From a virus: a stretch of 24,681 nucleotides of DNA. Under the pieces are notes generated by a model. That model saw only the letters and a program-made list of their open reading frames with translations, was not told the DNA's origin and did no database searches. Below, in pieces: positions 1 through 24,681 of the stretch. The DNA is taken from IMG/VR virus record IMGVR_UViG_3300008050_000299, positions 1 through 24,681 of that record, one strand, 5' to 3'. Position numbers and translations under genes: made by a program. The stretch's first letter is position 1, and each line of letters begins with the position of its first letter.

Positions 1-30
1 AAAAAACTTTCCCGAATTCCTGGATTGGCC

Positions 31-58
31 TTGACGGGCCGTCGATACCTGTCATACT
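31..58 (+). promoter_or_regulatory. Sigma-70-like promoter, repeat leader copy 1
   Basis: TTGACG at 31-36 and CATACT at 53-58 are separated by 16 bp. The same arrangement recurs at 785, 1141 and 1659, each ahead of a small gene, and this recurrence is the main support. The block CCTGGATTGGC just upstream of the -35 and GTCGATA inside the spacer are also conserved. Bases 1-20 are the end of a terminator-like hairpin whose start lies outside the window. The promoter is followed by an A/C-rich leader and AAGGAAAC at 97-104 before the ATG at 111. Confidence 0.75.
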
Positions 59-110
59 GAGCAAACAAGACACAAAACAAACTTTCACCACTTCACAAGG
101 AAACAAGACA

Positions 111-734
111 ATGTCGAAAACAACCACCACCACGACAGCCGCCGAAGCCGCCTTCAAAGCTTACACAAGCCTGCCCTTGACCGTCGCCCGCCTGAAGCAA
201 ATTGACGAAGCCGCCGATCGTTCCGACACAATGAACGAAATCGAATGGGTTGGTAATATTCCATCAGGCGAATTGAATGACTTGTTCCGCTTCGGCCTGG
301 TCGAATGGTGCACGTCAGATACAAGCTTCCCGACTGAATACTTCGAACTATCGAAGAAGGGCGAAGCCGTCCTGGCTGGCGTCAAACTGGCCGAAGCCGT
401 GGCTGACGAAACTGTAACTGACGAAGAATTCCAGGAAGCCGTCGATTCCGTCCTGGAAAACGCGAAGCCCTTTCAGCCGTACCACCTGGACGAAGAAAAC
501 TGCAAGCACGTCGTCGACTTCGTGTTCGGCGGCTTTCAAGCCGCAATCAAGGAACTGCACGGCGGCTACAATCCGACCGACAGCCGCAATGGCTATGCGA
601 CGCCAGGAACAGCCCGAACAGCCCTGGCGCGTCACTACGCCGCCGCGAAGGCGGGCTACGCTGACGACGCACGCTTCGTGATCTATCGCGACCTGAACGT
701 CGACCGTTACTTCTTCGTGACGCATACCAAGTAA
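111..734 (+). CDS. Hypothetical early phage protein (207 aa)
   Basis: I do not recognise this 207-residue protein. It opens with a Thr-rich stretch (residues 4-9). The first ~90 residues are mixed helical and end in a segment (FELSKKGEAVL, about 77-87) that resembles the wing of a winged-helix DNA-binding fold, but this is weak. The middle is strongly acidic, and the C-terminal third has a possible globular core ending RYFFVTHTK. All 18 Glu codons are GAA. The ATG at 111 is chosen because AAGGAA at 97-102 lies 8 bases upstream, exactly as in the three following cassettes. The gene is monocistronic, between promoter copy 1 and the terminator at 742-777. An early protein that acts on the host is plausible from position only. 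Confidence 0.8.
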   Translation: MSKTTTTTTAAEAAFKAYTSLPLTVARLKQIDEAADRSDTMNEIEWVGNIPSGELNDLFRFGLVEWCTSDTSFPTEYFELSKKGEAVLAGVKLAEAVADETVTDEEFQEAVDSVLENAKPFQPYHLDEENCKHVVDFVFGGFQAAIKELHGGYNPTDSRNGYATPGTARTALARHYAAAKAGYADDARFVIYRDLNVDRYFFVTHTK

Positions 735-741
735 GGGCCCA

Positions 742-777
742 CCAGGGGGCCGGAAAAAACTTTTCCGGTTTTCCTGG
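742..777 (+). terminator. Intrinsic terminator between genes 1 and 2
   Basis: A perfect 8-bp stem (CCGGAAAA at 750-757, TTTTCCGG at 761-768) with loop AAC is followed by TTTT at 769-772. An outer arm pairs CCAGG at 742-746 with CCTGG at 773-777, which could extend the hairpin. It lies a few bases after the stop of gene 1 and directly before promoter copy 2, so terminator and promoter form one compact unit. The short T tract makes its efficiency uncertain. Confidence 0.75.
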
Positions 778-784
778 ATTGGCG

Positions 785-812
785 TTGACAGGCTGTCGAT
801 ACTTGTCATACT
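785..812 (+). promoter_or_regulatory. Sigma-70-like promoter, repeat leader copy 2
   Basis: TTGACA at 785-790, the consensus -35, is followed after 16 bp by CATACT at 807-812. It shares the upstream block CCTGGATTGGC and the spacer GTCGATA with the other copies, and the leader GGAAGCACACGAAACGAAAAC downstream is nearly identical in copies 2 to 4. It drives the gene starting at 854, which has AAGGAAAC as ribosome binding site. Confidence 0.78.
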
Positions 813-853
813 GGAAGCACACGAAACGAAAACTTCAAACAAGGAAACGAACA

Positions 854-1087
854 ATGTCGAACGAAAACACACAACCAGCCGCCCCCGCCATTCCCGACCA
901 CAAGATCGAAAAAGGCGACGTCGTGCACGGCCTGGTTTGCGGTCGCTTCGTCGTCGTCGAATTACTGGAGAAAACCACGACGCGACCCTGGTCAGCCGCT
1001 ATGGTCCGCGAAAAGGGCCCTGGTCACGATCTGGGTCACGCCTTTTGCATGCCCCTAAATTGCTTCAAGGAATTCCAGGACCGCTAG
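854..1087 (+). CDS. Small hypothetical protein, paralogue of the next gene (77 aa)
   Basis: Unknown function. The open frame extends upstream to 779, but that part crosses the promoter; the ATG at 854 has the conserved AAGGAAAC site and starts MSNEN, like its neighbours' MSK and MSS. Residues ~17-75 align by eye with the start of the next gene: KxGxxVxGxxCGRFVVVxL, then VRxxGPxxxLGxAFxMPLxxFKEF. The pattern suggests a small beta-rich fold with a conserved Cys in CGRFVVV. The gene is a single-gene transcription unit between promoter copy 2 and the terminator at 1098-1133. Position and small size fit an early host-takeover or regulatory protein, but nothing in the sequence shows a function. Confidence 0.75.
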   Translation: MSNENTQPAAPAIPDHKIEKGDVVHGLVCGRFVVVELLEKTTTRPWSAAMVREKGPGHDLGHAFCMPLNCFKEFQDR

Positions 1088-1097
1088 AAGCCGCCCG

Positions 1098-1133
1098 CCA
1101 GGGGACCGGAAAAAACTTTTCCGGTTTTCCTGG
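1098..1133 (+). terminator. Intrinsic terminator between genes 2 and 3
   Basis: The stem CCGGAAAA (1106-1113) pairs with TTTTCCGG (1117-1124), loop AAC, then TTTT (1125-1128). The outer arms CCAGG (1098-1102) and CCTGG (1129-1133) are again complementary. It is almost base-for-base the same as the terminator at 742-777 and abuts promoter copy 3. Confidence 0.75.
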
Positions 1134-1140
1134 ATTGGCC

Positions 1141-1168
1141 TTGACGGCCTGTCGATATTAGTCATACT
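1141..1168 (+). promoter_or_regulatory. Sigma-70-like promoter, repeat leader copy 3
   Basis: TTGACG at 1141-1146, 16-bp spacer containing GTCGATA, CATACT at 1163-1168. The downstream leader and AAGGAAAC ribosome binding site match copies 2 and 4 closely. It drives the gene at 1212. Confidence 0.78.
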
Positions 1169-1211
1169 GGAAGCACACGAAACGAAAACCACTACCACAA
1201 GGAAACGAACA

Positions 1212-1607
1212 ATGTCGAAAACACACAACATCAAGCCAGGCCAGGAAGTCAATGGAAACGCTTGCGGGCGTTTCGTCGTCGTGAAGCTGACGCAAGTCGG
1301 AACAGTCGAAGCCGCCGAAGTCCGCCAGATCGGCCCGAAGGGTCAGCTAGGCACGGCCTTTATCATGCCCCTGGACGCCTTCAAGGAATTCTCACAAGAG
1401 GGCCGCGAAGAATTGTTGACGGCCTATCGCGAAATTGCAAGCAAAGCTATTTCATACTGCCGTCGTGCCGCGATCTACGGCCTTCTGAGCCAGGACGTCA
1501 AAAGCAATCGAAGCAATCGGCGACGAAACATCAAAAAGGCCCTAGCCTGTCGCGAAGCCGCCCGCGTACTTCGTGCCGCGACGACTGGCCTGACGCGACG
1601 ACGTTAG
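1212..1607 (+). CDS. Hypothetical basic protein, paralogue of the preceding gene (131 aa)
   Basis: The first ~60 residues repeat the domain of the preceding gene (CGRFVVVKL, GPKGQLGTAFIMPLDAFKEF). The remaining ~70 residues are an added helical, Arg/Lys-rich tail with RSNRRRNIKK and an end of TRRR, which could bind nucleic acid; that is inference from charge. The ATG at 1212 follows the cassette's conserved AAGGAAAC site. The gene lies alone between promoter copy 3 and the terminator at 1616-1651. The shared leader and shared domain together point to tandem duplication of a whole leader-plus-gene unit, followed by loss or gain of the C-terminal part. Function unknown. Confidence 0.78.
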   Translation: MSKTHNIKPGQEVNGNACGRFVVVKLTQVGTVEAAEVRQIGPKGQLGTAFIMPLDAFKEFSQEGREELLTAYREIASKAISYCRRAAIYGLLSQDVKSNRSNRRRNIKKALACREAARVLRAATTGLTRRR

Positions 1608-1615
1608 GCCGCCCG

Positions 1616-1651
1616 CCAGGGGCCAGGAAAGTTTTTTCCTGGTTTCCCTGG
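1616..1651 (+). terminator. Intrinsic terminator between genes 3 and 4
   Basis: The arm CCAGGAAA at 1623-1630 pairs with TTTCCTGG ending at 1642, around a T-rich loop, followed by TTT. The outer arms CCAGG (1616-1620) and CCTGG (1647-1651) pair as in the other two terminators. The inner stem has changed from CCGG to CCAGG with a matching change on the other arm, a compensatory difference that supports a selected RNA hairpin. Confidence 0.7.
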
Positions 1652-1658
1652 ATTGGCC

Positions 1659-1686
1659 TTGACGGGTCGTCGATAACAGTCATACT
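1659..1686 (+). promoter_or_regulatory. Sigma-70-like promoter, repeat leader copy 4
   Basis: TTGACG at 1659-1664, 16-bp spacer with GTCGATA, CATACT at 1681-1686. This is the last copy. No similar promoter was seen between here and 9991, so it may serve gene 4 and, by read-through, the whole replication operon. Confidence 0.78.
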
Positions 1687-1729
1687 GGAAGCACACGAAA
1701 CGAAAACCACCACCACAAGGAAACGAACA

Positions 1730-2002
1730 ATGTCAAGCCCACGAAAACAGCGAGCAATGTTTACAGCCCCACGACTGACGCCAGAAGCCGCCGAAGCTTT
1801 GCGAAAACGCCTTTCGCGAATGTTAGCAGTCACAAAAAACAAAGCTGACCAAGCTGGCTTTCGTATCGTCGTCGAAGGCGACGTCAACTGGTCGCCCTAC
1901 GCCACGACTTTCGAAACTGTCGAAGCTGTTTCGCTCGGCCTGGAACGCTGGAACAAACTCTATAATTTCACCGAAGGCGTAACCTTCGGCCTTTGCATGT
2001 AA
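1730..2002 (+). CDS. Hypothetical early phage protein (90 aa)
   Basis: Unknown function. The open frame runs back to 1262, but the upstream part is the shadow frame of the previous gene plus promoter; the ATG at 1730 has the conserved AAGGAAAC site. The protein begins with a basic segment (MSSPRKQRAMF), then a predicted helix LTPEAAEALRKRLSRML and a short mixed region ending FGLCM. It shows no metal-binding or catalytic motif. It is the last member of the four-cassette array. A 7-bp inverted repeat (CCGAAGG at 1971-1977, CCTTCGG at 1983-1989) lies inside its final codons and could form an RNA hairpin before the replication operon. Confidence 0.75.
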   Translation: MSSPRKQRAMFTAPRLTPEAAEALRKRLSRMLAVTKNKADQAGFRIVVEGDVNWSPYATTFETVEAVSLGLERWNKLYNFTEGVTFGLCM

Positions 2003-2012
2003 ACCACCACCT

Positions 2013-2034
2013 GGCGGGTCCTTCGGGGCCTGCC
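2013..2034 (+). promoter_or_regulatory. RNA hairpin with UUCG tetraloop
   Basis: GGCGGGTCC (2013-2021) pairs over nine positions, two of them G-U, with GGGCCTGCC (2026-2034). The loop is TTCG closed by C-G, the very stable UUCG tetraloop. No T tract follows (CCTTTCCTAAAGG), so it is more likely an mRNA stability, processing or attenuation element than a full terminator. It sits just before the ribosome binding site of the gene at 2059. Confidence 0.5.
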
Positions 2035-2058
2035 CCTTTCCTAAAGGAACCGAAGCCG

Positions 2059-2364
2059 ATGACAAACAACGAACACCCCTGGCCCCGCGTGCCGCTTGCC
2101 AGGAAAGACCCGCACGCGACCTGGTCTAACCTTGTCGCCTTCCGGCTGGACGGGGCCCGTGAAGTACTGGGGGCCGCTGAAGTCGAATTGTATATCGTCC
2201 GCCACTTGCCCACGATCCTGGAGGAATTCGCCGAACACCACGACCGCCGCGACTGGTCGATCTTCGTCGACGCCTTGCTTCCATACCTACTTGACACGCA
2301 CTATCGAAGAATAGTAAAACAGGCCGCCGCCGCTTTTGGCACGGCTACCCCTTCCCATTCCTGA
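2059..2364 (+). CDS. Hypothetical protein, first gene of the replication operon (101 aa)
   Basis: I do not recognise this protein. The frame is open from 1993, but the ATG at 2059 is preferred because AAAGGAACC lies about 9 bases upstream and the earlier part overlaps the hairpin at 2013-2034. The N-terminus is Pro/Trp-rich (HPWPRVPLARKD) and the rest looks helical, with FRLDGAREVLGAAEVELYIVR and a hydrophobic segment FVDALLPYLLDTHYRRIV. No signal peptide, membrane anchor or metal-binding motif is visible. It is followed after 11 bases by the DUF4406-like gene and is probably cotranscribed with it. Confidence 0.7.
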   Translation: MTNNEHPWPRVPLARKDPHATWSNLVAFRLDGAREVLGAAEVELYIVRHLPTILEEFAEHHDRRDWSIFVDALLPYLLDTHYRRIVKQAAAAFGTATPSHS

Positions 2365-2375
2365 AAGGAATACCT

Positions 2376-3221
2376 ATGCACCGCTTGAAAGTTTATATCG
2401 CGTGCCCCATTATGCACGACCCAGACGGCGACAATTTCGCCAGGGCCGCCGAAGCCCAAAGGCTTTTGATCGCGTCCGGCTTCGCCCCGCTTAATCCTGG
2501 CCTAACGACCGAAATGCCTGGTCACGAAGCCTTCACGCACGAAGCCTGGCTTGACGTCTGTAAGCCGTGGGTCGCGTCGAGCGACCTGGTCGTCAGGATA
2601 CCAGGCAAGTCGCCAGGCGCTGACATTGAAACCGACCTAGCCGACCAATTGGGGATACCTTGTTTCTATCCCAGCCACGACGCCTTCCCAGGCCCTGGTA
2701 CAGCAATTTCGAAGCTGGTTGACTACCTGGCGGGATACGACGACGCTGGCCTTCTTCGCCAGTACTGTAACGACTGCAAGGCGACGCCGCCCAGTAATCG
2801 CCAGATACAAGTCGACGACCAGGAAGCGACGACAGCCGCGAACTGGCTTAAAACCTTCTACGACGCCCAGGGGGCGACCGCTGACGAAGAACCGACTGAC
2901 GAAGCCTTGGGCGCGATCGACGCCGAAGAAGACAAACAGGCGGCCCTTGACGCGATCCGCGAAGAACGCGGCAAAGTCTACGGCGACCCCCGCGAAAACC
3001 ACGAAGGGATTGCCCAGATGTTCGCCCCGCTTCTGAAGCCGTGGGCCGATCTGATCGCCGACCAAGTGCCGCTACCACCGCATGTCGTGACGCTGCTAAT
3101 GTGCGCCGTCAAGATCAACCGTATGCGTCGAGTCTACCACCCAGACAATTTCGACGACTTGCGAAACTATGCCGATATGACTGAAGAACTACACCAGCAA
3201 TACGAAAGCGAAAACCTATGA
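2376..3221 (+). CDS. DUF4406-like / DUF6378-like fusion protein (281 aa)
   Basis: Residues ~4-100 resemble DUF4406, a relative of nucleoside 2-deoxyribosyltransferases: KVYIACPI at 5-12, GFAPLNPGL at 35-43, and SPGADIETDLADQLGIPCFY at 79-98, where E85 matches the family's catalytic Glu position. Residues ~195-270 resemble DUF6378, a phage MazG-like family: EERGKVYGDPRENHEGIA, then CAVKINRMRRVYHPDNFDDL and a final NYADM. An acidic, low-complexity linker (~145-190) joins them. The likely role is nucleotide salvage or housecleaning during phage replication; this follows from the families and no substrate can be named. GAAAGGA precedes the ATG at 2376. It overlaps the next gene by ATGA. Confidence 0.75.
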   Translation: MHRLKVYIACPIMHDPDGDNFARAAEAQRLLIASGFAPLNPGLTTEMPGHEAFTHEAWLDVCKPWVASSDLVVRIPGKSPGADIETDLADQLGIPCFYPSHDAFPGPGTAISKLVDYLAGYDDAGLLRQYCNDCKATPPSNRQIQVDDQEATTAANWLKTFYDAQGATADEEPTDEALGAIDAEEDKQAALDAIREERGKVYGDPRENHEGIAQMFAPLLKPWADLIADQVPLPPHVVTLLMCAVKINRMRRVYHPDNFDDLRNYADMTEELHQQYESENL

Positions 3222-4069
3222 CCAAATTGCAGCCCTGGAAGTCAGGAACAGCCTCCGCTGTCGACCTGACCGACGAACAGTACTTCGCCGAATATAACCA
3301 GTTTATGTCAGCCCACAACCTTCAGACTTTTCGTCATTCGCCGATGGCTTTCAAGCGAAAGCAATCGGGCGAAGTGGTCCGCCAGTCGTCGGCGGCTTAC
3401 GCCTTCGGCACGGCGGCCCATCACCTGGTACTAGAAGGGCCCGACGTTTTCCACGCGAACTACAGCGTGGGGGGTGGTCCAGTGAACCCGAAGACCGACA
3501 AGCCTTACGGCGCTTCGACCAATCGTTATAAGGAATGGCTGGCGGAACTGGCGAAAGCCGGAAAGGAACCGATCAGCGAAAGCGATTATTATAAAATCGG
3601 GTGTATGAACAACCATATTCACAACCACCCGACAGCCGCCCCGTTGTTCGAAACTGGAAAGCCGGAAGTCGCGATCAGGGGGCACCTGTACGACGTCAAG
3701 TCACAGTCGAAGATCGACTGGCTTGACGAAAAAAACAAGCGAATTGTCGACCTGAAAACTTGCGCGGAATTGGGAAGCAAGCACACGTCGCATTTCCCCT
3801 GCAAGTTCGCAAAGGACGCCCAGTACTTCGGGTACTTCCAGCAATTGGCTTTTTATCGTAGTATGGTAGCCGCCCTGACCGGCGAAAACTATGAAGTTTT
3901 CATCGTCGCCGTCGAAAAAACCGAACCCTTCGAAGTCGGCGTTTTCCGCCTGTCGAAGTCGACCCTTGACGGGGCCGAAGAACAGAACAGAAACACGCTG
4001 ACCGAATACAAGGCGTGTCTTGAAGCGGGCGACTGGCCTAGCCGTTTTAACGAAACCATCACACTATAA
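3218..4069 (+). CDS. PD-(D/E)XK exonuclease, RecE/DUF3799-like (283 aa)
   Basis: Phage-type exonuclease expected to resect double-stranded ends to make single strands for annealing. The RecB-family motifs appear in order: FGTAAHHLVLEG (63-74) with the upstream His motif, KPEVAI with E150, KIDWL with D167, IVDLKT with D178 and K180 as the D-x-K core, and QQLAFYR (208-214) as the Q-x-x-x-Y-like motif. The 283-residue length fits stand-alone phage exonucleases. The start overlaps the previous stop as ATGA. It is followed by a Sak4-like ATPase and a DUF669 protein, the usual company of phage recombination exonucleases. A Cas4-like nuclease is the main alternative, but no Fe-S cysteine cluster is seen. 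Confidence 0.82.
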   Translation: MTKLQPWKSGTASAVDLTDEQYFAEYNQFMSAHNLQTFRHSPMAFKRKQSGEVVRQSSAAYAFGTAAHHLVLEGPDVFHANYSVGGGPVNPKTDKPYGASTNRYKEWLAELAKAGKEPISESDYYKIGCMNNHIHNHPTAAPLFETGKPEVAIRGHLYDVKSQSKIDWLDEKNKRIVDLKTCAELGSKHTSHFPCKFAKDAQYFGYFQQLAFYRSMVAALTGENYEVFIVAVEKTEPFEVGVFRLSKSTLDGAEEQNRNTLTEYKACLEAGDWPSRFNETITL

Positions 4070-4081
4070 GGAAGCCACACT

Positions 4082-4813
4082 ATGAAAATCCATAAGGGAA
4101 AAAGACCCGCCCCGCGTAAGTGCCTAGTCTATGGCGGGCCAGGCGTGGGGAAGTCGACATTCGCCAGCCAGGCACCCAGCCCCGTTTTCATTCCGACAGA
4201 AGACGGGCTGGGCGAAATCGACTGTCATTCCTTCGACCTAGCGAAGCACTACGACGACGTTCTGGTCGCGATCGGCCAGCTTTACAGCGAAGACCACAAC
4301 TATAAGACGGTCTGTATTGACTCTGTCGACTGGTTAGAAAGCCTAATCTGGGAGAAAATTTGTGACGACCAGAAAGTCGACACGATCGAAATTGCATCAG
4401 GCGGCTATGGTAAAGGCTACGTCCTGGCGGCCCAGCTTATGGGCGACGTACTGACGGGCCTAAACGCGATCCGCGAGAAAAACGGTATGCACGTAATCCT
4501 AATCAGTCACGGGCGAACAGAACGCCACGCCGACCCCGAACAGCCTGACTATGACCGTTGGGCCCCAAAGCTCCACAAGCACGTTTCGGCTAAGGTTATG
4601 GAATGGTGCGACGAAGTTTTATTCGCAATGCCCAAAGTATTTACAACGACCGAAGAAGGCACCTTCGGTAAGAAGTCGACGAAAGCCCTGTCGACTGGTC
4701 AGCGAGTTTTACGAACGATCGACAAAGCGACGGCCCGCGCGAAAAACCGACTAGGGCTTCCTGAAGAAATCGAATTGAAATGGCAGGCTTACGCCGACCA
4801 CTTCAGCAAGTAA
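4082..4813 (+). CDS. Sak4-like RecA-fold ATPase, AAA_24 family (243 aa)
   Basis: RecA-like ATPase of the phage AAA_24/Sak4 type, thought to promote single-strand annealing together with a partner ssDNA-binding protein. The Walker A is GGPGVGKST (18-26), the Walker B region is KTVCIDSVDWLE (75-86), and ISHGRTE (141-147) matches the conserved strand after it. The length is typical of the family. AAGGAAG (4068-4074) lies 7 bases before the ATG. It sits between the exonuclease and the DUF669 protein. This order is the main argument for Sak4 over a generic AAA protein. No N- or C-terminal extra domain is visible. Confidence 0.85.
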   Translation: MKIHKGKRPAPRKCLVYGGPGVGKSTFASQAPSPVFIPTEDGLGEIDCHSFDLAKHYDDVLVAIGQLYSEDHNYKTVCIDSVDWLESLIWEKICDDQKVDTIEIASGGYGKGYVLAAQLMGDVLTGLNAIREKNGMHVILISHGRTERHADPEQPDYDRWAPKLHKHVSAKVMEWCDEVLFAMPKVFTTTEEGTFGKKSTKALSTGQRVLRTIDKATARAKNRLGLPEEIELKWQAYADHFSK

Positions 4814-4822
4814 GTTTTTTAC

Positions 4823-4852
4823 GCCTGACTACCAGGCCCCACTACTTTTTTT
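4823..4852 (+). terminator. Possible weak hairpin and T tract in the operon
   Basis: A short stem, GCCTG (4823-4827) with CAGGC (4833-4837), is followed eight bases later by a T run at 4846-4852. Stem and spacing are poor for an intrinsic terminator, so this may be only an attenuator or chance. The ribosome binding site GAAAGG of the next gene overlaps its 3' edge. Confidence 0.2.
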
Positions 4853-4866
4853 GAAAGGTCATTTCT

Positions 4867-5334
4867 ATGACGCAAATCGACTTCAGTCTTTCAGACCACG
4901 AAGAAGCCCCCCGCGAAGACTTCGCGCCGCTTCCAAACGGCGACTATCCTGTCGTAGTCCAGTCGAGCGATAAGCCCACCAGCAAGGCGGGGCACGTTTA
5001 CTTTAAGATCGTTTTTCAGGTGATCGAAGGCGAAGCGAAGAACCGCCTGATCTTCGATAACCTGAACTGTTACCACCCAAACGCCGACGTCGCCAGTCGG
5101 GCGAAAGGTTCGCTTTATCGACTTGGTGAAGCTGTCGGCAAGATCGGGGCGACTGATACTTCGGAGTTTCACAATATCCCACTGGTCGTCACCGTCAAAA
5201 GCAAACGAAACGGCGACCGCGTCGATACTAATGTCGTCGCTTATAAGCGAATGGGCGACCAGTCGCAACCGCTGGAACCGCCGAAGCCGAAACACAACTA
5301 CAATGACGTCAGCCCCTGGCAAAATGAGGGGTAA
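4867..5334 (+). CDS. DUF669 family protein, probable ssDNA-binding partner (155 aa)
   Basis: DUF669 proteins are small phage proteins found beside recombinases and helicases and are likely ssDNA-binding. The family signature is visible: LPNGDYPVVVQSSDKPTSKA (about 22-41), then YFKIVFQVIEGE, and RLIFDNLNCYHPN, followed by a helical part (SLYRLGEAVG) and a final beta segment TNVVAYKRM. The C-terminal ~30 residues are Pro-rich and probably disordered, ending SPWQNEG, which is not the usual SSB acidic tip. GAAAGG lies just upstream of the ATG. Placement after the Sak4-like gene fits a recombination trio. Biochemical role is inferred from family and context. Confidence 0.85.
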   Translation: MTQIDFSLSDHEEAPREDFAPLPNGDYPVVVQSSDKPTSKAGHVYFKIVFQVIEGEAKNRLIFDNLNCYHPNADVASRAKGSLYRLGEAVGKIGATDTSEFHNIPLVVTVKSKRNGDRVDTNVVAYKRMGDQSQPLEPPKPKHNYNDVSPWQNEG

Positions 5335-5338
5335 TTAA

Positions 5339-5761
5339 ATGGCCTACGACTTGAAGTTTTCCGATAACTGGATTAAGTCGCGGGCCCGCCTACTGGCGGG
5401 CGTCTTCAGGCACGTTGAATACGAAGACGCCTGTCAGGACCTGGCGGTGTTGTTTCTTGAAACGAAATTCGCCAGCCCTTCCGTTGTCTGGCTTCGCGCT
5501 TTGCAGATCGAAAACCGCAAGGCCGCCGCCACTTTCGAAAACCTGGCCGTCCCTGTTCTGGACCACGCCGACCCGTCGACACCCTACGACCTGGCCGACT
5601 GGCTAGGGTCTGTACTTGACGAAAGTCAATACCGCATTGCCATTATGTTAGTAGAAGGCTACACACAAGAAGAGATAGGGAAGGCGTTCAGTTATTCCCA
5701 GCAAGCCGCCGCCCTTCATTGTGAAACGATCCGCACCATACTAGAGAAGGCTACATTATGA
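5339..5761 (+). CDS. Small sigma-70-like / HTH protein (140 aa)
   Basis: Probable transcription factor of the ECF sigma type, or a sigma-derived DNA-binding protein. Residues ~95-137 resemble sigma region 4: RIAIMLVEGYTQEEIGKAF, then SYSQQAAALHCETIRTIL, giving a helix-turn-helix at ~108-135. The N-terminal part (VEYEDACQDLAVLFLE, about 26-41) is similar in layout to the start of sigma region 2, but it is short and lacks a clear DNA-melting motif. At 140 residues it is shorter than usual ECF factors. GAGGGG lies 7 bases before the ATG. The last bases ATGA overlap the helicase start, so the two are translationally coupled. It could drive late genes, or be a Xis- or terminase-like HTH protein instead. 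Confidence 0.6.
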   Translation: MAYDLKFSDNWIKSRARLLAGVFRHVEYEDACQDLAVLFLETKFASPSVVWLRALQIENRKAAATFENLAVPVLDHADPSTPYDLADWLGSVLDESQYRIAIMLVEGYTQEEIGKAFSYSQQAAALHCETIRTILEKATL

Positions 5762-7407
5762 AACCACGAGAATACCAGCAAGACGCGATCGACGCGACCT
5801 GGCTACACGTAAGACACAAAAAAACAAATCCCTGTATTGAAGCCCCCACCGGCGCGGGCAAGTCGATAATTATTGGAAAACTAGTCGCCGACGTGATCGG
5901 CTGGGGTGGGCGTGCTTGCGTACTCCAGCATAGAAAGGAACTGATCGAACAGAATCACGAAAAGATTGTCGCTATGTCGCCAGACGCAGACGTCGGCGTC
6001 TACTCCGCTGGCCTGAAGCGATCCGACCTTGACAATCAGGTGATTGTCGCCGGTATTCAGTCGGTCCATAAGAAGGCGTGGGATTTTAATAGCTTCGACA
6101 TTGTGATCGTTGACGAAGCCCACCTGATACCACCCGAAGGCGAAGGAATGTTTCGGGGCTTCCTGGCCGACTGTCAGGACGCAAACCCGAATGTGCGAAT
6201 CATCGGCCTGACGGCCACGCCGTACCGCCTGAAGACGGGCCTGGTTTGCGGGCCCGAAAACTTCCTTCACGAAATCTGCTACACGATCGACGTAAAGTCA
6301 CTGATCGCCGACGGCTACCTTTCGCCACTAATCAGTAAGCACGCCGTCAGCCAGGCCGACCTTTCAAGCGTCGGTGTTCGTGGTGGTGAATTTATCCCCG
6401 CGCAAGTCCAGAACGAAATGATTGACGGGCCACGCCTGGCCGAAGCTTGCGACGAACTGATCGCGAAGACCGCTGACCGAAAAAGCGTTCTGGTTTTCGC
6501 GTCAGGTGTTGACCACGCCCAGGAAGTCGTTTCGATGTTGGAATTCCTTTCGCCGCTGTCGAAGGTCGCAATGATAGAAGGCGGCACGGCGGCCTATATT
6601 CGGTCGAATATCCTGGCCGACTTCAAAGCGGGCCGCGTCAAGTACTTAGTTAATGTCGACGTCCTGACGACAGGCTTCGACGCGCCGAACGTCGACGCCG
6701 TCGCCTTGCTACGCCCCACGCTGTCGCCTGGCCTTTATTATCAGATGGTAGGTCGCGGCCTTCGGATCGCACCAGGTAAAACCGACTGCCTGATACTTGA
6801 CTTCGCGGGCAACATTGAAAGGCACGGGCCTATTGACGCGATTGAAGTCAGCCCGAAAAAAGGCGGGTCAGGAAAAGGGGGCGACCCTGTCGGTAAGCAT
6901 TGCCCAGAATGTCGCGAAGTGGTTCACGCCAGCGTCAGGGCTTGCACGTATTGCGGCCACGAATTTCCGCCGCCAGAACCGAAGCACGAAACAGAAGCAA
7001 GCGAAGAAGCTGTTCTGAGTGAACCAGACGAACTGTACAAAGTCCTTTCGATCGAATACACAATTCACGAAAAGCGCGACGCCGAACCAGGCGACCCCAG
7101 GACGCTTCGCGTTGACTATACTGTCGACGGGCGACGCTGGCCCGTTAGTGAATGGGTTTGTGTTGAACACGGCGGCTACGGGTTCGAAAAAGCCCTGACC
7201 TGGTGGAATAAAAGAACCGACGGCACGCCTTGCCCTACCAGGTGCGACGAAGCCGTCAGCCTGGCCCGTGACGGTATTCTTTTGGAACCGCGTGAAATTG
7301 CTGTTGACGAGTCGGGCAAGTTTGCTAGAATCAATCGCTACATTGATATGAAGTTTCCCGAAGCACCACAACCAAGCGAGGAAAAAGAAGATGACTTCCC
7401 GTTCTAA
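5758..7407 (+). CDS. SF2 DEAH-box helicase with zinc finger (549 aa)
   Basis: ATP-dependent helicase of superfamily 2 for phage replication or recombination. Motifs in order: REYQQDAI (4-11), Walker A APTGAGKS (29-36), DEAH (119-122), LTATPYR (151-157), LTTGFDAPNVD (303-313), and QMVGRGLRIAPGK (329-341). A four-Cys zinc finger follows (C382, C385, C396, C399). Next comes a phage-helicase C-terminal region with SEWVCVEHGGYGFEKALTWW (464-483). The protein ends EEKEDDFPF, which closely resembles the acidic tip of bacterial SSB (consensus DDDIPF). AGAAGG precedes the ATG, which overlaps the sigma-like gene's stop. The last 17 bases overlap the next gene. Confidence 0.9.
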   Translation: MKPREYQQDAIDATWLHVRHKKTNPCIEAPTGAGKSIIIGKLVADVIGWGGRACVLQHRKELIEQNHEKIVAMSPDADVGVYSAGLKRSDLDNQVIVAGIQSVHKKAWDFNSFDIVIVDEAHLIPPEGEGMFRGFLADCQDANPNVRIIGLTATPYRLKTGLVCGPENFLHEICYTIDVKSLIADGYLSPLISKHAVSQADLSSVGVRGGEFIPAQVQNEMIDGPRLAEACDELIAKTADRKSVLVFASGVDHAQEVVSMLEFLSPLSKVAMIEGGTAAYIRSNILADFKAGRVKYLVNVDVLTTGFDAPNVDAVALLRPTLSPGLYYQMVGRGLRIAPGKTDCLILDFAGNIERHGPIDAIEVSPKKGGSGKGGDPVGKHCPECREVVHASVRACTYCGHEFPPPEPKHETEASEEAVLSEPDELYKVLSIEYTIHEKRDAEPGDPRTLRVDYTVDGRRWPVSEWVCVEHGGYGFEKALTWWNKRTDGTPCPTRCDEAVSLARDGILLEPREIAVDESGKFARINRYIDMKFPEAPQPSEEKEDDFPF

Positions 7408-7825
7408 CTCAGACCGAAATGTAAAGTTAAGAAGTAAGAAACGGCTTCAAACGATCGACCGCCAGGCGAATGTTTACAGGACACTTGACGGCGTCAAGCA
7501 CGTCCTGCCAACAAACGAACACGAAGCCGAAATTCTGGCCGACATGGCGGGCGAATACGGCGACGGGCGACCGTCACAACAAAACGGGTACTTCGAACCG
7601 ATGACACCCGAAAAGGAAGCCAGGGCTGACGCCTGGATCAAAGCGCGTTGCGAGTACATCCGAAAAAACCCGCCAAACCTTTTCCCACGACCAGTCGAAA
7701 CGGCTGACTGGATTGCCCACGCTGGGCTTTGCTACGAAAGCGAAGCGAACACCCTCCCCGATGGTTCCCACCGCGTCAGTTATGCCGACGTCCTGGAACA
7801 CTTCAGACCAGAAGGGAAGAAGTAA
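7391..7825 (+). CDS. Hypothetical protein in the replication operon (144 aa)
   Basis: Not recognised. The N-terminus is basic (residues 1-25, KLRSKKRLQTIDRQ), followed by an acidic middle and a segment with two conserved-looking aromatic patches (EKEARADAWIKARCEYIRK and ADWIAHAGLCYESEA). No zinc cluster or nucleotide-binding motif is seen. The start overlaps the helicase end by 17 bases; its GAGG ribosome binding site (7378-7381) lies in the codons for the helicase's acidic tail. The tight coupling suggests a helicase or primase accessory role, but that is inference from position. The next gene starts 3 bases after its stop. Confidence 0.72.
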   Translation: MTSRSNSDRNVKLRSKKRLQTIDRQANVYRTLDGVKHVLPTNEHEAEILADMAGEYGDGRPSQQNGYFEPMTPEKEARADAWIKARCEYIRKNPPNLFPRPVETADWIAHAGLCYESEANTLPDGSHRVSYADVLEHFRPEGKK

Positions 7826-7828
7826 CCG

Positions 7829-9991
7829 ATGGTTGAATATAAAAACATACCAGCCCACCTGAAGGAAATCGACCAGTGGGTTTTATGGAAATATGAAGAT
7901 CGCGGGGGCAAGCCGACCAAAGTGCCCTACCAGGCTAATGGCCTTCGGGCGTCGTCAGTCGACCCCGCACACTGGTCGACATTTGAAGACGCGAAAACAG
8001 CCTTCTATAAAGCTGGCGACACAATGTCAGGTATTGGAATTGTTTTCACCGAAGGCGACAACCTAGTCGGCGTCGACCTTGACGACGCGATCGTCGACGG
8101 CAAGCTTACGCCGTGGGCGAAGAAGATCGTCAAACAGTTTCCGACCTACGCCGAAATCAGCCCGTCAGGAAACGGGCTGAAGCTGTTCGCGACGTGCGAC
8201 GAAAACCGAAAGGGGCGAAAGGTAAAACTTCCTGACGGCGGGGCGATCGAAGTTTACCACCAGGGCCGCTATTTCACCGTTACGGGCGACGTCGGCGCGT
8301 TAATGGGCTGCCCAGTCGCCCATTGTCAGAAGGGCCTAGAATGGCTTGACAAGGAACACCCCAGCCCGTCGACCGCGATCGACTTTCACAAGTCGGCGAC
8401 AATCGCCGACGACGGCGGGTCAGGTTTCAGCTTCAGCCCCACGACAATCGACAGGGCTGTCAAGTACATAGCGAAATACCCGCCCGCGATCGAAGGCCAG
8501 GACGGGCACGGTACGCTTTTTAGAATTGCTTGTGTGTTGGTCAATGGCTTCGAACTGCCCCCGTCGTCAGCCCTGGCCGTACTCACGAACCACTATAACG
8601 CGACGTGTCAGCCCCCTTGGTCGTCAAAGGAACTACAACACAAAGTCGACCAGGCACAAAAGGCCGACGGCCCCAGGGGCTGGCTTCTGAATGAAGCCGC
8701 TTTCGCTGACTCAGTCCAGCCAGTTAAGGCTTCAGAATTACCTGTCTTTAATGACTTCGTGAAGCCTAAAGAAGACGACCCTTTCCCACCCCACTTGCTG
8801 GACGTGCCAGGCTTCATAGCCGACGTAACGAACTGGATCAACAGCCAGAACAATGTAAAACAGCCGATACTTGGCCTTATGGGGGCGATCGCCCTTCAAG
8901 CGACGCTGGCGGGCCGTAAGGTCCGCGACAAGTCAGGCCAGCGAACAAACCTGTACATCGTCGCAATGGCCCCCAGTGGCGGAGGCAAACAGGCCCCGCA
9001 AACGTGCCTGAAGAAAATATTAGGAATGACTGGCCTGGCCGATCTGTACGGCGGCAAATGCGCCAGCGAATCAGCCCTGGCCCAGGACCTAGTAAACAGC
9101 CCCGCGAAAACCTGGTTATGGGACGAATTCGGGCGCTTCCTGGCGAAGTCGAGCGATAAGCCAGGGAACGCCCACCTTCACGCAATACAAGAAGTGCTTC
9201 TGGAACTATGGAATGAATCTTCTGTACTTTGGAAGCACAAAAGCATGGCCGACAGTAAATTCAACCGCGAAGTCGAACAGCCTTGCGCCAGCTTCTTCGG
9301 ACTGACTGTCGCCGAACACTTCTGGCGCGGTCTTGAAGAGTCCCACCTTTACGACGGCTTCGCAGGTCGCCTTCTGGTTGTCGACACTGGCAAGCGGGCC
9401 GCGAAGCGAGATAAAGAGGAACTGGACCCGCCCCAGTCCATACTTGACGCCGTCCAGCTTTGGAAGGATTTTCAGCCAGGCGGAAATATGGCGAGCGAAA
9501 ACCCCCGCCCGCGACTGATCGAAGAATCGAAACAGGCTGGCGAAGTGTTCCAGGAATTGATACGGCGGGCCGACCAGCATGAAGACCACCCGCTTAACTC
9601 CACGATCTGGAGTCGAGCAATCGAAAAGGCGAAGCGACTGGCGATGGTTTACGCGTGTTCCGCTGATCCGATGTTACCCTATATCGACGTCGACGCCGCC
9701 GCGTGGGCTTGTGGCCTGGTCGCCTGGTCGACTGACGCCTTCTGCGAAAAAATGGCAAGCGAAGTAATTGACGACAACCACTTCGCCGTGCTACGGAAAA
9801 AAGTACTTGACATCATCAAAAAGCACAACCACCGGGGCGAATACTGTCAGCGAACTATCCTACTAAGGGCCGCCCGCGTGCCAGCGAAGGCGTTAAACGA
9901 AGTACTTGACACCCTCCAGCAATCGGGCGAAGTTCGCCAGGTAGCCGAAGGGCGTGGCCTGGCTTACGCGATCCTGGAACAGAAAGCGTAG
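7829..9991 (+). CDS. Primase-polymerase (NrS-1-like AEP) fused to DUF3987 ATPase (720 aa)
   Basis: Large replication protein. Residues ~1-160 closely follow the layout of the NrS-1 phage primase-polymerase: KEIDQWVLWKYED, PYQANGLRASSVDPAHWSTF, catalytic GVDLDDAI with D83 and D85, ISPSGNGLKLF (110-120), and AIEVYHQGRYFTVTG (139-153). The usual SGxGLH histidine is Lys118 here. Residues ~205-280 resemble a primase C-terminal helical domain. Residues ~315-560 resemble DUF3987, with a Walker-A-like APSGGGKQ (381-388), WLWDEFGRF (429-437) and LYDGFAGRLLVVDT. The ~100-residue C-terminus resembles a winged helix (ARVPAKALNEVLDTL). It likely primes and unwinds DNA. Its stop lies 2 bases from the stop of the convergent gene. 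Confidence 0.88.
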   Translation: MVEYKNIPAHLKEIDQWVLWKYEDRGGKPTKVPYQANGLRASSVDPAHWSTFEDAKTAFYKAGDTMSGIGIVFTEGDNLVGVDLDDAIVDGKLTPWAKKIVKQFPTYAEISPSGNGLKLFATCDENRKGRKVKLPDGGAIEVYHQGRYFTVTGDVGALMGCPVAHCQKGLEWLDKEHPSPSTAIDFHKSATIADDGGSGFSFSPTTIDRAVKYIAKYPPAIEGQDGHGTLFRIACVLVNGFELPPSSALAVLTNHYNATCQPPWSSKELQHKVDQAQKADGPRGWLLNEAAFADSVQPVKASELPVFNDFVKPKEDDPFPPHLLDVPGFIADVTNWINSQNNVKQPILGLMGAIALQATLAGRKVRDKSGQRTNLYIVAMAPSGGGKQAPQTCLKKILGMTGLADLYGGKCASESALAQDLVNSPAKTWLWDEFGRFLAKSSDKPGNAHLHAIQEVLLELWNESSVLWKHKSMADSKFNREVEQPCASFFGLTVAEHFWRGLEESHLYDGFAGRLLVVDTGKRAAKRDKEELDPPQSILDAVQLWKDFQPGGNMASENPRPRLIEESKQAGEVFQELIRRADQHEDHPLNSTIWSRAIEKAKRLAMVYACSADPMLPYIDVDAAAWACGLVAWSTDAFCEKMASEVIDDNHFAVLRKKVLDIIKKHNHRGEYCQRTILLRAARVPAKALNEVLDTLQQSGEVRQVAEGRGLAYAILEQKA

Positions 9992-12543: not shown

Positions 12544-13398
12544 TTACCAGGGTCCTAAATCGAGTGTGTTTAAGTCGGCTTCGCCGTACTTGTGAAATGT
12601 CAAAAAGTGGGGCGTGTTCGTTGTGTTTTCTTCGCCGTTGCCGTCAAGGTTTCCGATTACTTGCTGAAAAGCGTCGTCACCAAACGGCACGCGCGTATTG
12701 TGACTAGGCCCCTTCCAGTGCCGAAGCCCCTGGTCTAAGATTTTCATCTTCCAGGCGTCGTCGTCGGTCTTGAATTTTATCTGGTACGCTACTTCCCACA
12801 ATTCAGTTTCTTTTATTTTGGTCTTGTTTGCGGTGATCGTTGAAAGCAAAGCTTCGCCGACACCAGCGCCCCAGAAAGCTGTTGAGTTCGTCTTGTTTGT
12901 CCAAAGGTCTACGGTCAGGCCGTCAAAAGTCAGTTCCTTTCGCGTGATCGTCAGGACAGGAATTGACCGGGGCGTCGTGACTGGCGGCAAAGGGTCGCCG
13001 CAGCTATTTTGAATAGCGTTCTGGACGTTCACCGCATCATATAACATAGGTACTTCGATAACTTCAGTAGACCAGCCCCACTTCGGTAGCCTGTCCCAGG
13101 GTTCCTGGTCGTCGGGCTTTTCGCCTTTCTTATCGTCAAAGCTGGCTTCGACTTCCCATACAAGCGGGCCGACTTCTGAAACGCTAAGGCTTCGGCACCA
13201 GGCCCCCGCATAAAGGGGCGACTCCGTGCCAATACTTGGAACGCCAGTAACGGCCAGAACGTCGGGTTCGCGTTCTGACTCGCTGGTCATTTGCACGACG
13301 TAGGTCGCTGAATGGTCGTATTCTATGCGACGGTCTGTTTCGTTCCAACTACTGCCCGATTCGACACCAAACCGTATACCCGCAAGCGTGCCTGACAT
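12544..13398 (-). CDS. Hypothetical protein directly after the tape measure; possible distal tail protein (284 aa)
   Basis: This gene has the position that distal tail (Dit) or baseplate-hub genes take in siphovirus operons, immediately after the tape measure, but I see no diagnostic Dit or hub motif. Visible features are SGSSWNETDRRIEYDHSATY near the start, a mixed alpha/beta core with many Trp and Asp, and a C-terminus PHFLTFHKYGEADLNTLDLG. It has no membrane segment or signal peptide. The ATG directly abuts the tape-measure stop (TAAATG). A tail-tip structural role is a positional inference only. Confidence 0.72.
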   Translation of the reverse strand: MSGTLAGIRFGVESGSSWNETDRRIEYDHSATYVVQMTSESEREPDVLAVTGVPSIGTESPLYAGAWCRSLSVSEVGPLVWEVEASFDDKKGEKPDDQEPWDRLPKWGWSTEVIEVPMLYDAVNVQNAIQNSCGDPLPPVTTPRSIPVLTITRKELTFDGLTVDLWTNKTNSTAFWGAGVGEALLSTITANKTKIKETELWEVAYQIKFKTDDDAWKMKILDQGLRHWKGPSHNTRVPFGDDAFQQVIGNLDGNGEENTTNTPHFLTFHKYGEADLNTLDLGPW

Positions 13399-14781
13399 TT
13401 ACACTAATCCCAGTGCGGGCTCTTGGTCTTTGATCGCGTCTTCGATCTTCTTCAAGGCCCTTAGTTCTTTATTGCTTTTGTTTTCTGTAAACTTCGTGTA
13501 AGCCGCGACGTCACGGGCCGCGTCAAGTGTTTCGGGGCTGGCGGCTTGTACCATCTTATCGGCGGCCTTGTCCATTTTTTCGACAGCCACGCCCGCGCCT
13601 TCCTTCAGTGGGTCCGTAAAGTCTTTTACTTTTTCCAGTTCGTCGCCCGCCGCCTGGCGGTTTTCTTCGATCTGTTTTTTCCCATTCGCAAAAGCTTCGT
13701 CAATCTTGTTTGAAAAGGCCAGTTCGAAGTTTTCGCCCGCCGCTTTGTTTTGTTCGTCGGCCAGCTTATTCAGTTCGTCAATAAGCATCTGGTCGCCAGT
13801 TATCAGCGAGATACCCGCCGCGATCCGCGTAAGCCAGGATTGTACTTTTCGAAGAACCGAAGCCAGGGCGAAAAAAGTCTTTACCGCGAACTGTATGGGG
13901 GAGCCTAATAGTTCCATTGCGCCGACCAGGCCGTCGACCGCGCTTTCAGCCCCGCCCATTTCGCTGGACGAATCTGACATAAGGCCCAGTAGGACGCTAA
14001 GGTCTGACGCCCAGCCCTCCAGGACGGGCAAAAGCTTTTCACCCACGACGACCAGGAAGTCGTTGATTTTACCTTTGATCGCTTTAATCTGGTTCGCCCA
14101 CGATCCGCCAGAACGCGATACGTCACCCTGTGCGGCTGAAGTGCCTTCCAGGATGATATTATAACGGGCCATTGCCTTCTGCGCGTTGCTGGCCGTCTTC
14201 GGGTCAATGCCGTTCTTCAGAAGCTCCGCCTTTGTCGCGGCTTCATTCAGAACAACGCCGTACTTTTTCATCACTTCACCCGACCCCGTCAGGGCCGCTT
14301 GAAAGTCGCGCACGACGTCGGCGTCGTTTTTATTATTGAAGCTTGCTACGTCAATACCTAGCTTCGTCAGGTCCTGACTAAGGCCCGTCGCGGCTTCGCC
14401 TGTCAAGCCCATAGGAACCAGTAGGTCTTGAAAGCTGGCCGCCGTGTCCGCGATCTGTTGCTTCGATCGACCGAAGGCCCCCGCCGTCGCGTCGCTCCAC
14501 TTCTTCATAACTTCAGAATTCTCGCCGAACACAACATTGAATTTATTCATTGTCTCCTGCATATCAGAAGCCGCCTTGACGCCCTTCGTCAAGACCACCG
14601 CCAGGCCGCCCAGCGTGGCCGCGCCAGCCGCCGCGACCGCCTTGGCTAACATACCGCCAAGCTTTTTCATTGCCCCCCCAAAAGCTTTCATTCGCTTCTG
14701 AACGCTCCCCAATTGGGCATTGACTTGTTCCTTTCCTTTGACGACCAGTTCGACAAAAGCCTTACCAGCATTTACAGCCAT
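13399..14781 (-). CDS. Tail tape measure protein (460 aa)
   Basis: Length-determining tail protein. The N-terminus is a coiled-coil-like helix (VKGKEQVNAQLGSVQKRMKA), then a Gly/Ala-rich hydrophobic segment (GGMLAKAVAAAGAATLGGLA, ~42-61) typical of tape measures. Next comes FNVVFGENSEVMKKWSDATA and SFNNKNDADVVRDFQAALTG, motifs of the phage tape-measure core domain. The rest is helical and Lys/Glu-rich, ending with AALKKI-like charged repeats. Using the usual ~1.5 angstrom per residue, 460 residues predict a short tail of roughly 70 nm. The start overlaps the previous stop by one base (TAATG). Confidence 0.88.
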   Translation of the reverse strand: MAVNAGKAFVELVVKGKEQVNAQLGSVQKRMKAFGGAMKKLGGMLAKAVAAAGAATLGGLAVVLTKGVKAASDMQETMNKFNVVFGENSEVMKKWSDATAGAFGRSKQQIADTAASFQDLLVPMGLTGEAATGLSQDLTKLGIDVASFNNKNDADVVRDFQAALTGSGEVMKKYGVVLNEAATKAELLKNGIDPKTASNAQKAMARYNIILEGTSAAQGDVSRSGGSWANQIKAIKGKINDFLVVVGEKLLPVLEGWASDLSVLLGLMSDSSSEMGGAESAVDGLVGAMELLGSPIQFAVKTFFALASVLRKVQSWLTRIAAGISLITGDQMLIDELNKLADEQNKAAGENFELAFSNKIDEAFANGKKQIEENRQAAGDELEKVKDFTDPLKEGAGVAVEKMDKAADKMVQAASPETLDAARDVAAYTKFTENKSNKELRALKKIEDAIKDQEPALGLV

Positions 14782-20867: not shown

Positions 20868-21098
20868 TCAGTTCCTGACATTTGCCATTTTCGTGACCTG
20901 ACGAAGTACGAAAGTTTCGTCGCAGTCGCAGCAAGTAACATAAAACCAGGCGACGTGTTCGCCTGTCGCCTGGCTGTCAATTTCCCTATGGGCCCCGCGT
21001 TTCTTCAAGTGCTTCTGGTGCCCGCAGTGGGGGCAGGCCGGGGGCGTCGTCGTGACTGTCTTTTTCGGCTTTCGCTTCGTCGTTTTCTTTTTGCTCAT
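20868..21098 (-). CDS. Small Zn-ribbon protein (76 aa)
   Basis: A very basic N-terminus (MSKKKTTKRKPKKTV) is followed by a four-Cys zinc ribbon, CPHCG at ~22-26 and CCDCDE near 56-61, separated by ~30 residues that include HLKKRGAHRE. The C-terminus is VLRQVTKMANVRN. The gene overlaps the terminase stop by ATGA, so it is coupled to it. A DNA-binding or packaging role, or Com-like translational control, would fit its position, but neither can be shown from sequence. It is too short and has no HTH to be a standard small terminase. Confidence 0.72.
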   Translation of the reverse strand: MSKKKTTKRKPKKTVTTTPPACPHCGHQKHLKKRGAHREIDSQATGEHVAWFYVTCCDCDETFVLRQVTKMANVRN

Positions 21099-23747: not shown

Positions 23748-24653
23748 TTAGGTTGTCTCTGTTATCGAAGTGGGGCTGGTCGCGTCGTCGTAGGTGTAGG
23801 TTTTCGCTGGCGTCGTGCCGTCTAGCTCGTAGATTGTTTTCGTTGTTCCGACGTTTCCATTTTCAGCCAGGTGCCCCAGTATTTCGTAAAGAAGCTGGGC
23901 CGCCGTTCCTTCGGCACCTGTCGCCCGCCACGCCGCCGTTAAGGCCGTGGTCCAGACCGCGTCGACCTTGCCGTCGGTGATCGCATGAAGGACCGCCGCC
24001 GTGCCAGCCGCGTCGGGCGTGGTGGTGTTCGCCCCGTCGGTTCCGCGCATCGGCGTCGTGGGAATTAACGCGACAGCCGCGTCGGTGATCGCATGAAGGG
24101 CCGCCGCCGTCCCGGCCGCGTCAGGCGTCGTCGTGTTTGCGCCATCGGTTCCGCGCATCGGCGTCGTGGGTATCAGTGCGACCGCAGCGTCAGTCGTTGT
24201 GTGCAAGGCCGCCGCTGTCCCGGCCGCGTCAGGCGTCGTGGTGTTCGCCCCGTCTGTTCCGCGCATCGGCGTCGTGGGTATCGCCGCGACGTCCGCCGAC
24301 AGGCTTGCCCCGCCAGGTGCCCCTAACCTAGCGAAGCTGTCGCCAGTCTGGGCCGTATGGCCGACCACCGAACCGACTGACCCGCCGACGTTGCCCGTAA
24401 CGCTGCCGACGGCCCCTGTTACGGAACCGACAGCACCCGTTACAGATCCGACAGCCCCGCTAAGACTGGCCGCCGAAGTGTTCGTAAGTGCTACCGTCGA
24501 AGTTTTGTTTTCGATATTGCCCCAGTCGATACCAGCCGCCCCCGTCGCCGTAACGTCAAGCGTTCGTCCTGCCGTTGTTGCTTGTAATGGTCCTTCAGCA
24601 GAGGCTCCGTACATCGCGTCATACACAGCTTCTTCAACGACGTGCCAAGTCAT
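23748..24653 (-). CDS. Fibre-like repeat protein (301 aa)
   Basis: Probable tail-fibre or fibre-associated protein. From Met1 (ATG 24653): a globular start MTWHVVEEAVYDAMYGASAE, then three GAVGSVT heptapeptides (66-86) and GNVGGSVGSVVG, a motif common in phage fibre-like proteins. SFARLGAPGGASLSADVAAI leads to three 36-residue repeats (122-229, IPTTPMRGTDGANTTTPDAA). The C-terminus is LLYEILGHLAENGNVGTTKT and KTYTYDDATSPTSITETT. The ATG at 24653 is preferred over a TTG at 24665 because it overlaps an upstream stop as ATGA. Composition suggests a long, thin, trimeric fold. The gene lies upstream of the terminase, not after the tape measure. Confidence 0.7.
   Translation of the reverse strand: MTWHVVEEAVYDAMYGASAEGPLQATTAGRTLDVTATGAAGIDWGNIENKTSTVALTNTSAASLSGAVGSVTGAVGSVTGAVGSVTGNVGGSVGSVVGHTAQTGDSFARLGAPGGASLSADVAAIPTTPMRGTDGANTTTPDAAGTAAALHTTTDAAVALIPTTPMRGTDGANTTTPDAAGTAAALHAITDAAVALIPTTPMRGTDGANTTTPDAAGTAAVLHAITDGKVDAVWTTALTAAWRATGAEGTAAQLLYEILGHLAENGNVGTTKTIYELDGTTPAKTYTYDDATSPTSITETT
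23967..24290 (-). repeat. Three 108-bp in-frame tandem repeats
   Basis: Three consecutive 36-codon units of the fibre-like gene, with the anchor GCATGAAG at 23983, its counterpart at 24091, and GTGTGCAAG at 24199, spaced exactly 108 bp. The copies are highly similar at DNA level, which favours copy-number change by recombination or slippage. Confidence 0.88.
24396..24458 (-). repeat. Three 21-bp repeats coding GAVGSVT
   Basis: Three tandem 21-bp units in the fibre-like gene code for GAVGSVT three times, followed by a related GNVGGSVGSVVG. The DNA copies differ mainly at third codon positions, so protein-level selection probably maintains them. Confidence 0.8.
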
Positions 24654-24681
24654 CTTGACCAGCAAGGCACCTGATTCATGG
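24650..24681 (-). CDS. Possible C-terminus of an upstream late gene (partial)
   Basis: Reading from the window edge, a frame codes for ...MNQVPCWSR and stops at 24650-24652 (TGA) within an ATGA overlap with the fibre-like gene. Such overlaps are the rule in this operon, so it is probably the end of a further late gene outside the window. Ten codons are too few for identification. Confidence 0.35.
   Translation of the reverse strand, partial: MNQVPCWSR

Follow-up and report, generated by a model that had tools for sequence, protein, structure and literature searches.

T4-type phages, among them RB49 and phi1, reportedly carry PeSL cassettes (early promoter plus stem-loop). For these units, PMC4503421 and PMC4177764 cite Arbiol et al. 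2010 and Comeau et al. 2014, and PMC4503421 states that PeSLs were reported to mediate gene shuffling. Direct comparison of the RB49 sequence revealed intergenic repeats that are 77-92% alike and occur in two forms. In the first, the stem-loop lies between or across the -35 and -10 hexamers. The second, at 34422-34524 and 45266-45366, is composed of a terminator, a promoter, a leader, a ribosome site and an ATG. Related arrangements are described in other viruses. In cluster K mycobacteriophages, the ESAS/SAS elements repeat a SigA-like promoter with an inverted repeat before siphovirus genes, with a conserved stretch, the 13-bp SAS GGGATAGGAGCCC, beside the start codons; in ESAS the promoter motif itself includes the inverted repeat, and there is no terminator in the unit (PMC11373665). 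In the haloarchaeal myovirus HGTV-1, an archaeal TATA-box-like promoter element and an inverted repeat precede most ORFs of one part of the genome, and these gene-start motifs were already compared with PeSLs by the authors (PMC3950731). Finally, morons of temperate phages, such as those of Serratia phage eta, are isolated insertions, each bringing one accessory gene together with a promoter and a terminator of its own (PMC3918226).

The window, that is the whole stretch of 24,681 bases analysed here, is a complete IMG/VR-type virus record and corresponds to a fragment of an uncultivated tailed phage. Searches with family libraries placed early genes running rightward from the left end and late genes running leftward from the right end (Table 1). 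TerL and portal match phrog_15/38 and phrog_21, and the primase shares about 26% identity with its counterpart in siphoviruses such as PaMx42. A near DNA search of phages gave no close match to the window. Judged from its sequence, the virus is a non-T4 phage.

Four copies of a module of about 120 nt, extending from a stop codon to a start codon, separate small genes at the left end of the window. All four occur where the original prediction had located them, each with the promoter TTGACG/A, 16 nt, CATACT. Besides this promoter, all modules share CTGGATTGGC, an unstructured leader and AAGGAAAC ahead of the ATG. The array is located directly upstream of the replication and recombination genes, which share its strand, and the late region has none. 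Scored against a 39-nt consensus, the four copies reach 35-38, and no module is found elsewhere in the window, where the next best site scores 21.

A second contig, IMGVR_UViG_3300025133_007249 (L005, from metagenome 3300025133), differs from window positions 1-6910 by 1 mismatch in 6,910 bases and represents the same virus. L005 reaches 1,288 bases further left. It completes copy 1 (module C) and brings two more copies, A and B. Thus, the array does continue leftward, as had been predicted, and contains at least six promoters. All six fit TTGACN7CGATANNNGTCATACT, with a single spacing and in a single array. From left to right, L005 contains what may be a small 42-aa ORF, then modules A and B, each ahead of the gene of the same letter, a hairpin of another kind, gene D, and modules C, 2, 3 and 4, which precede genes 1, 2, 3 and 4, respectively. 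Gene 4 is followed by a further hairpin unlike those of the modules and by the genes leading into the replication region. Positions 21-59 of L005 might hold a decayed seventh promoter copy (24/39 against the consensus, with a background of about 21, and no -35), which we do not claim.

Table 1 Features of the array and of the genes around it. Positions refer to the window unless L005 is named.
Feature	Position	Strand	Description
Module A	L005 204-324		complete
Module B	L005 523-610		without hairpin
Module C (window copy 1, upstream end complete)	L005 1269-1398		degenerate hairpin
Module copy 1 (C)	1..110	+	hairpin cut and degenerate; box CCTGGATTGGC 19-29; promoter 31-58 (-35 TTGACG 31-36, -10 CATACT 53-58); leader; AAGGAAAC; ATG 111
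Module copy 2	735..853	+	hairpin (outer stem) 742-777; promoter 785-812 (-35 TTGACA 785-790, -10 CATACT 807-812); leader and AAGGAAAC; ATG 854
Module copy 3	1088..1211	+	hairpin (outer stem) 1098-1133; promoter 1141-1168 (-35 TTGACG 1141-1146, -10 CATACT 1163-1168)
Module copy 4	1608..1729	+	hairpin (outer stem) 1616-1651, other stem sequence (CCAGG/CCTGG); promoter 1659-1686 (-35 TTGACG 1659-1664, -10 CATACT 1681-1686)
Gene A	L005, after module A		65 aa
Gene B	L005, after module B		123 aa
Gene D	L005, before module C		71 aa, no promoter module
Cassette gene 1	111..734	+	207 aa, orphan
Cassette gene 2	854..1087	+	77 aa, paralogue of gene 3
Cassette gene 3	1212..1607	+	131 aa; shares 52% identity with gene 2 across 59 aa, extra C-terminal stretch
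Cassette gene 4	1730..2002	+	90 aa, orphan, last in array
Hairpin GGCGGGTCC-TTCG-GGGCCTGCC	2013..2034	+	unrelated to module hairpins; poor T-tract; 3' of gene 4, no module after
Downstream genes without modules	2059..9991	+	orphan 2059-2364, DUF4406+DUF6378 protein, exonuclease VIII-like PDDEXK, Sak4-like, SSB-like, sigma-like HTH protein, helicase, primase
Early genes	left end onward	+	exonuclease VIII-like, Sak4-like annealing protein, SSB-like, helicase, primase
Late genes	from right end	-	major head protein, portal, terminase

A chance origin of the repeats was considered and rejected. The best 39-mer identity in L005 1-3400 is 39/39, versus at most 28/39 in 40 dinucleotide shuffles, which never came near the observed value. 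Alignment of the modules shows that the likeness spans from just past one stop codon to 2-3 codons beyond the next ATG. The repeat is therefore the whole intergenic interval. Modules A, 2, 3 and 4 are 81-90% similar in pairwise comparisons and copy C is 69-74% similar to the others. Despite this likeness of the modules, the flanked genes are unrelated, except for genes 2 and 3, a paralogous pair with 52% identity across a 59-aa stretch (E about 1e-15), each of which kept its own module. Sequence comparison detected no relation among the other products. Genes 2 and 3, with their adjacent modules, would fit tandem duplication of one gene and its flanks, followed by divergence of the genes, with modules that change more slowly and do not serve for exchange. 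However, the other products have no detectable relationship while their modules are 81-90% alike, and the boundary of the likeness sits at stop and start codons. Incompatible site patterns in 4 of 10 pairs also hint at mixing, with only five informative sites and possible homoplasy. Duplication on its own thus appears distinctly unlikely.

In modules A, 2 and 3, the hairpin is CCAGGGG-N-CCGGAAAA-AAC-TTTTCCGG-TTTT-CCTGG. The inner stem of module 4, CCAGGAAA-GTTT-TTTCCTGG, differs in sequence but keeps its 8 bp. Folding predicts strong hairpins in four of the six copies, A, 2, 3 and 4, whose energies lie between -20.7 and -23.4 kcal/mol and whose z-scores upstream of the -35 are -3.5, -2.9, -3.2 and -3.9, respectively. 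Copy C reaches only -9.9 kcal/mol (z-score -0.5) and copy B has no hairpin. Three complete hairpin terminators and a first one cut by the edge had been proposed from the window. The three complete hairpins are confirmed, but L005 shows that the first is degenerate and not merely truncated. Because B has no hairpin and C a poor one, termination is a non-constant part of the module. The suggestion that each gene is transcriptionally isolated consequently fails at modules B and C, and gene D has no module.

The T-run is weak, only four T followed by CC, and in the most stable fold it is base-paired within the outer stem. Both points leave the strength of the terminator uncertain. A simple terminator scan does not call the module hairpins, save for one alternative pairing. 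The short T-run and the best fold, a long 16-bp stem with one bulge, would also suit RNA 3'-end stabilisers or processing sites, the promoters then giving graded expression along a read-through transcript. Against this, the hairpin ends 7 nt before the -35 in every copy with a complete hairpin, a position that better suits termination and restart. We regard a role in stabilisation or processing as very unlikely.

The original prediction also recognised a box, CCTGGATTGGC, upstream of the -35. Its CCTGG pairs with CCAGG across the hairpin and so also forms the stem's 3' base, but CTGGATTGGC stays where the hairpin is missing. This conservation in copy B indicates a second reason for keeping CTGGATTGGC. 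In addition, the -35 and spacer contain an imperfect palindrome, TTGACRG-N-CYGTCGA, a candidate operator whose inner five pairs are perfect in A, 2 and C. A protein encoded by the phage or its host could bind it together with CTGGATTGGC and repress or activate all the genes at once, recombination playing no part. CTGGATTGG(C) and CGATA are retained even in copy B, at least 5 of 7 pairs of the 15-bp palindrome form in five of the six copies (versus 1.7% of window 15-mers), and a paired change from GACAG/CTGTC to GACGG/CCGTC is observed. But one pair is broken in copies 3 and 4, copy B is badly broken (3/7) and a repressor gene was not found in the fragment. Since common control would also leave the likeness of hairpins and leaders unexplained, we consider it possible but somewhat unlikely as the full account.

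The leaders, with 0 to 5 T each, have folding energies of about 0 kcal/mol, compared with a genome mean of about -6 to -9. Modules end with AAGGAAACGAACA-ATG or near variants, and all six genes start with ATGTC. From the arrangement of these parts, we favour a PeSL-like array, in which the intergenic unit ends the transcript of the preceding gene and starts a new one for the next gene (probability roughly 0.7). The hairpin and short T-run, both visible in the sequence, would act as a terminator. The sigma-70-type promoter TTGACR-16-CATACT would then restart transcription, presumably early in infection, by a host RNA polymerase assumed to be a sigma-70-type holoenzyme. The near U-free, unstructured leader, with AAGGA before the ATG, is expected to give efficient translation. 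Because unrelated genes are flanked by almost identical stop-to-start intervals, modules could recombine homologously and so duplicate, remove or swap individual genes while leaving expression intact, probably assisted by the exonuclease/Sak4-like system of the phage. The paralogous genes 2 and 3, each with a module, may be the trace of one such duplication. Such a control unit probably lets the genes switch on independently and be swapped in and out. Overall, the observed repeats are confirmed and the original interpretation is partly supported: the iterated terminator-promoter-leader cassette, its continuation to the left and its likeness to arrangements in other phages hold.

As in PeSLs, a sigma-70-type promoter and a stem-loop are repeated between small genes that lack known function. 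Six TTGACR-16-CATACT sites are recognised, by sequence alone, in near-identical repeats between accessory genes, and the second RB49 form has the same architecture, exactly terminator, promoter, leader, AAGGAG and ATG. In contrast, the module has no sequence relation to PeSLs, one module type dominates, and the hairpin lies wholly upstream of the -35, whereas many RB49 stem-loops lie between or across -35 and -10. Shuffling is reported for PeSLs, whereas we infer it here. Since the phage is not a T4-type myovirus, we file the array as working like a PeSL, not as a PeSL. The SAS of cluster K is absent from the module ends, HGTV-1 is a different virus with another kind of promoter, and, unlike the isolated signals of morons, those of the module are repeated six times within a single array. 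Because ESAS (PMC11373665) and the HGTV-1 motif (PMC3950731) are similar arrays from other groups, the kind is already known and the present array adds to it.

Searches beyond this virus returned no second array. With exact patterns, more than one copy was found only in L005 among 2.9 million viral contigs and 85,000 genomes; the other hits were single, with at most 26/39 against the consensus. The expectation of further copies in relatives was thus not borne out, multiple copies being confined to the same virus and the matches in other contigs being single chance ones. Near and distant DNA searches of phages and a distant search of plasmids found no module, and an Rfam search gave no match. 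A self-repeat scan of 82 relatives, collected through the Sak4-like and primase proteins, found no other gene-separated array, which is weak evidence because most of them are fragments. As the sole array-bearing relative is the same virus and none that differs in gene content turned up, no shuffling event was observed. In L006, the nearest relative by primase (40-41% identity), an accessory region (12943-14057) contains a hairpin with a T-run and a leader ending in ACAATGAGGGAAA at the gene starts 13223 and 14015, and the leader alone at 12953. These repeats look like a partial analogue of the module, without an obvious promoter.

The cassette genes gave no match above noise in PADLOC, Pfam, NCBIfam and PHROGs, and reliable homologues of their products were not found in phage records. 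AlphaFold models have a mean pLDDT of 52 for gene 3 and 40 for gene 1. The array had been likened to plug-in cassettes for host-takeover or anti-defence genes known from other phages. The comparison with RB49 bears out the arrangement, but the role gains no support from genes without family matches, and from position and size it is a guess. A dedicated gene-exchange platform outside the T4 group, at whose uniform modules the exonuclease/Sak4-like system of the phage itself would recombine and whose orphans would be a changing stock of genes for early host interaction, perhaps for anti-defence, is a tentative and unlikely extension. If the PeSL-like reading is right, a phage group with no relation to T4 evolved promoter-terminator cassettes independently. 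This would point to a general means by which phages gather and trade small accessory genes. The module would also single out six genes without known function (A, B and 1-4) that are candidates for a role in early interaction with the host, and offer a search handle for more.

Other features of the window were noted. The 140-aa product of 5339-5761 (+) shows weak likeness to sigma-70 region 4 (Pfam Sigma70_ECF, E 0.015, below cut-off). With 30% identity, the counterpart in L006 hits Sigma70_r4 at an E of 0.001, again short of the cut-off. The gene may thus encode a sigma-like regulator of the phage within the replication operon. The gene at 2376-3221 (+) encodes one protein with an N-terminal DUF4406 (nucleoside 2-deoxyribosyltransferase-like) and a C-terminal DUF6378. 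Beside the terminase, 20868-21098 (-) encodes a 76-aa zinc-ribbon protein that weakly matches restriction alleviation protein Lar (E 9e-5, below cut-off). Within the leftward gene 23748-24665, a 108-nt unit is present three times in tandem at 23972-24295 (81-86% alike) and yields protein repeats of IPTTPMRGTDGANTTTPDAAGTAA.
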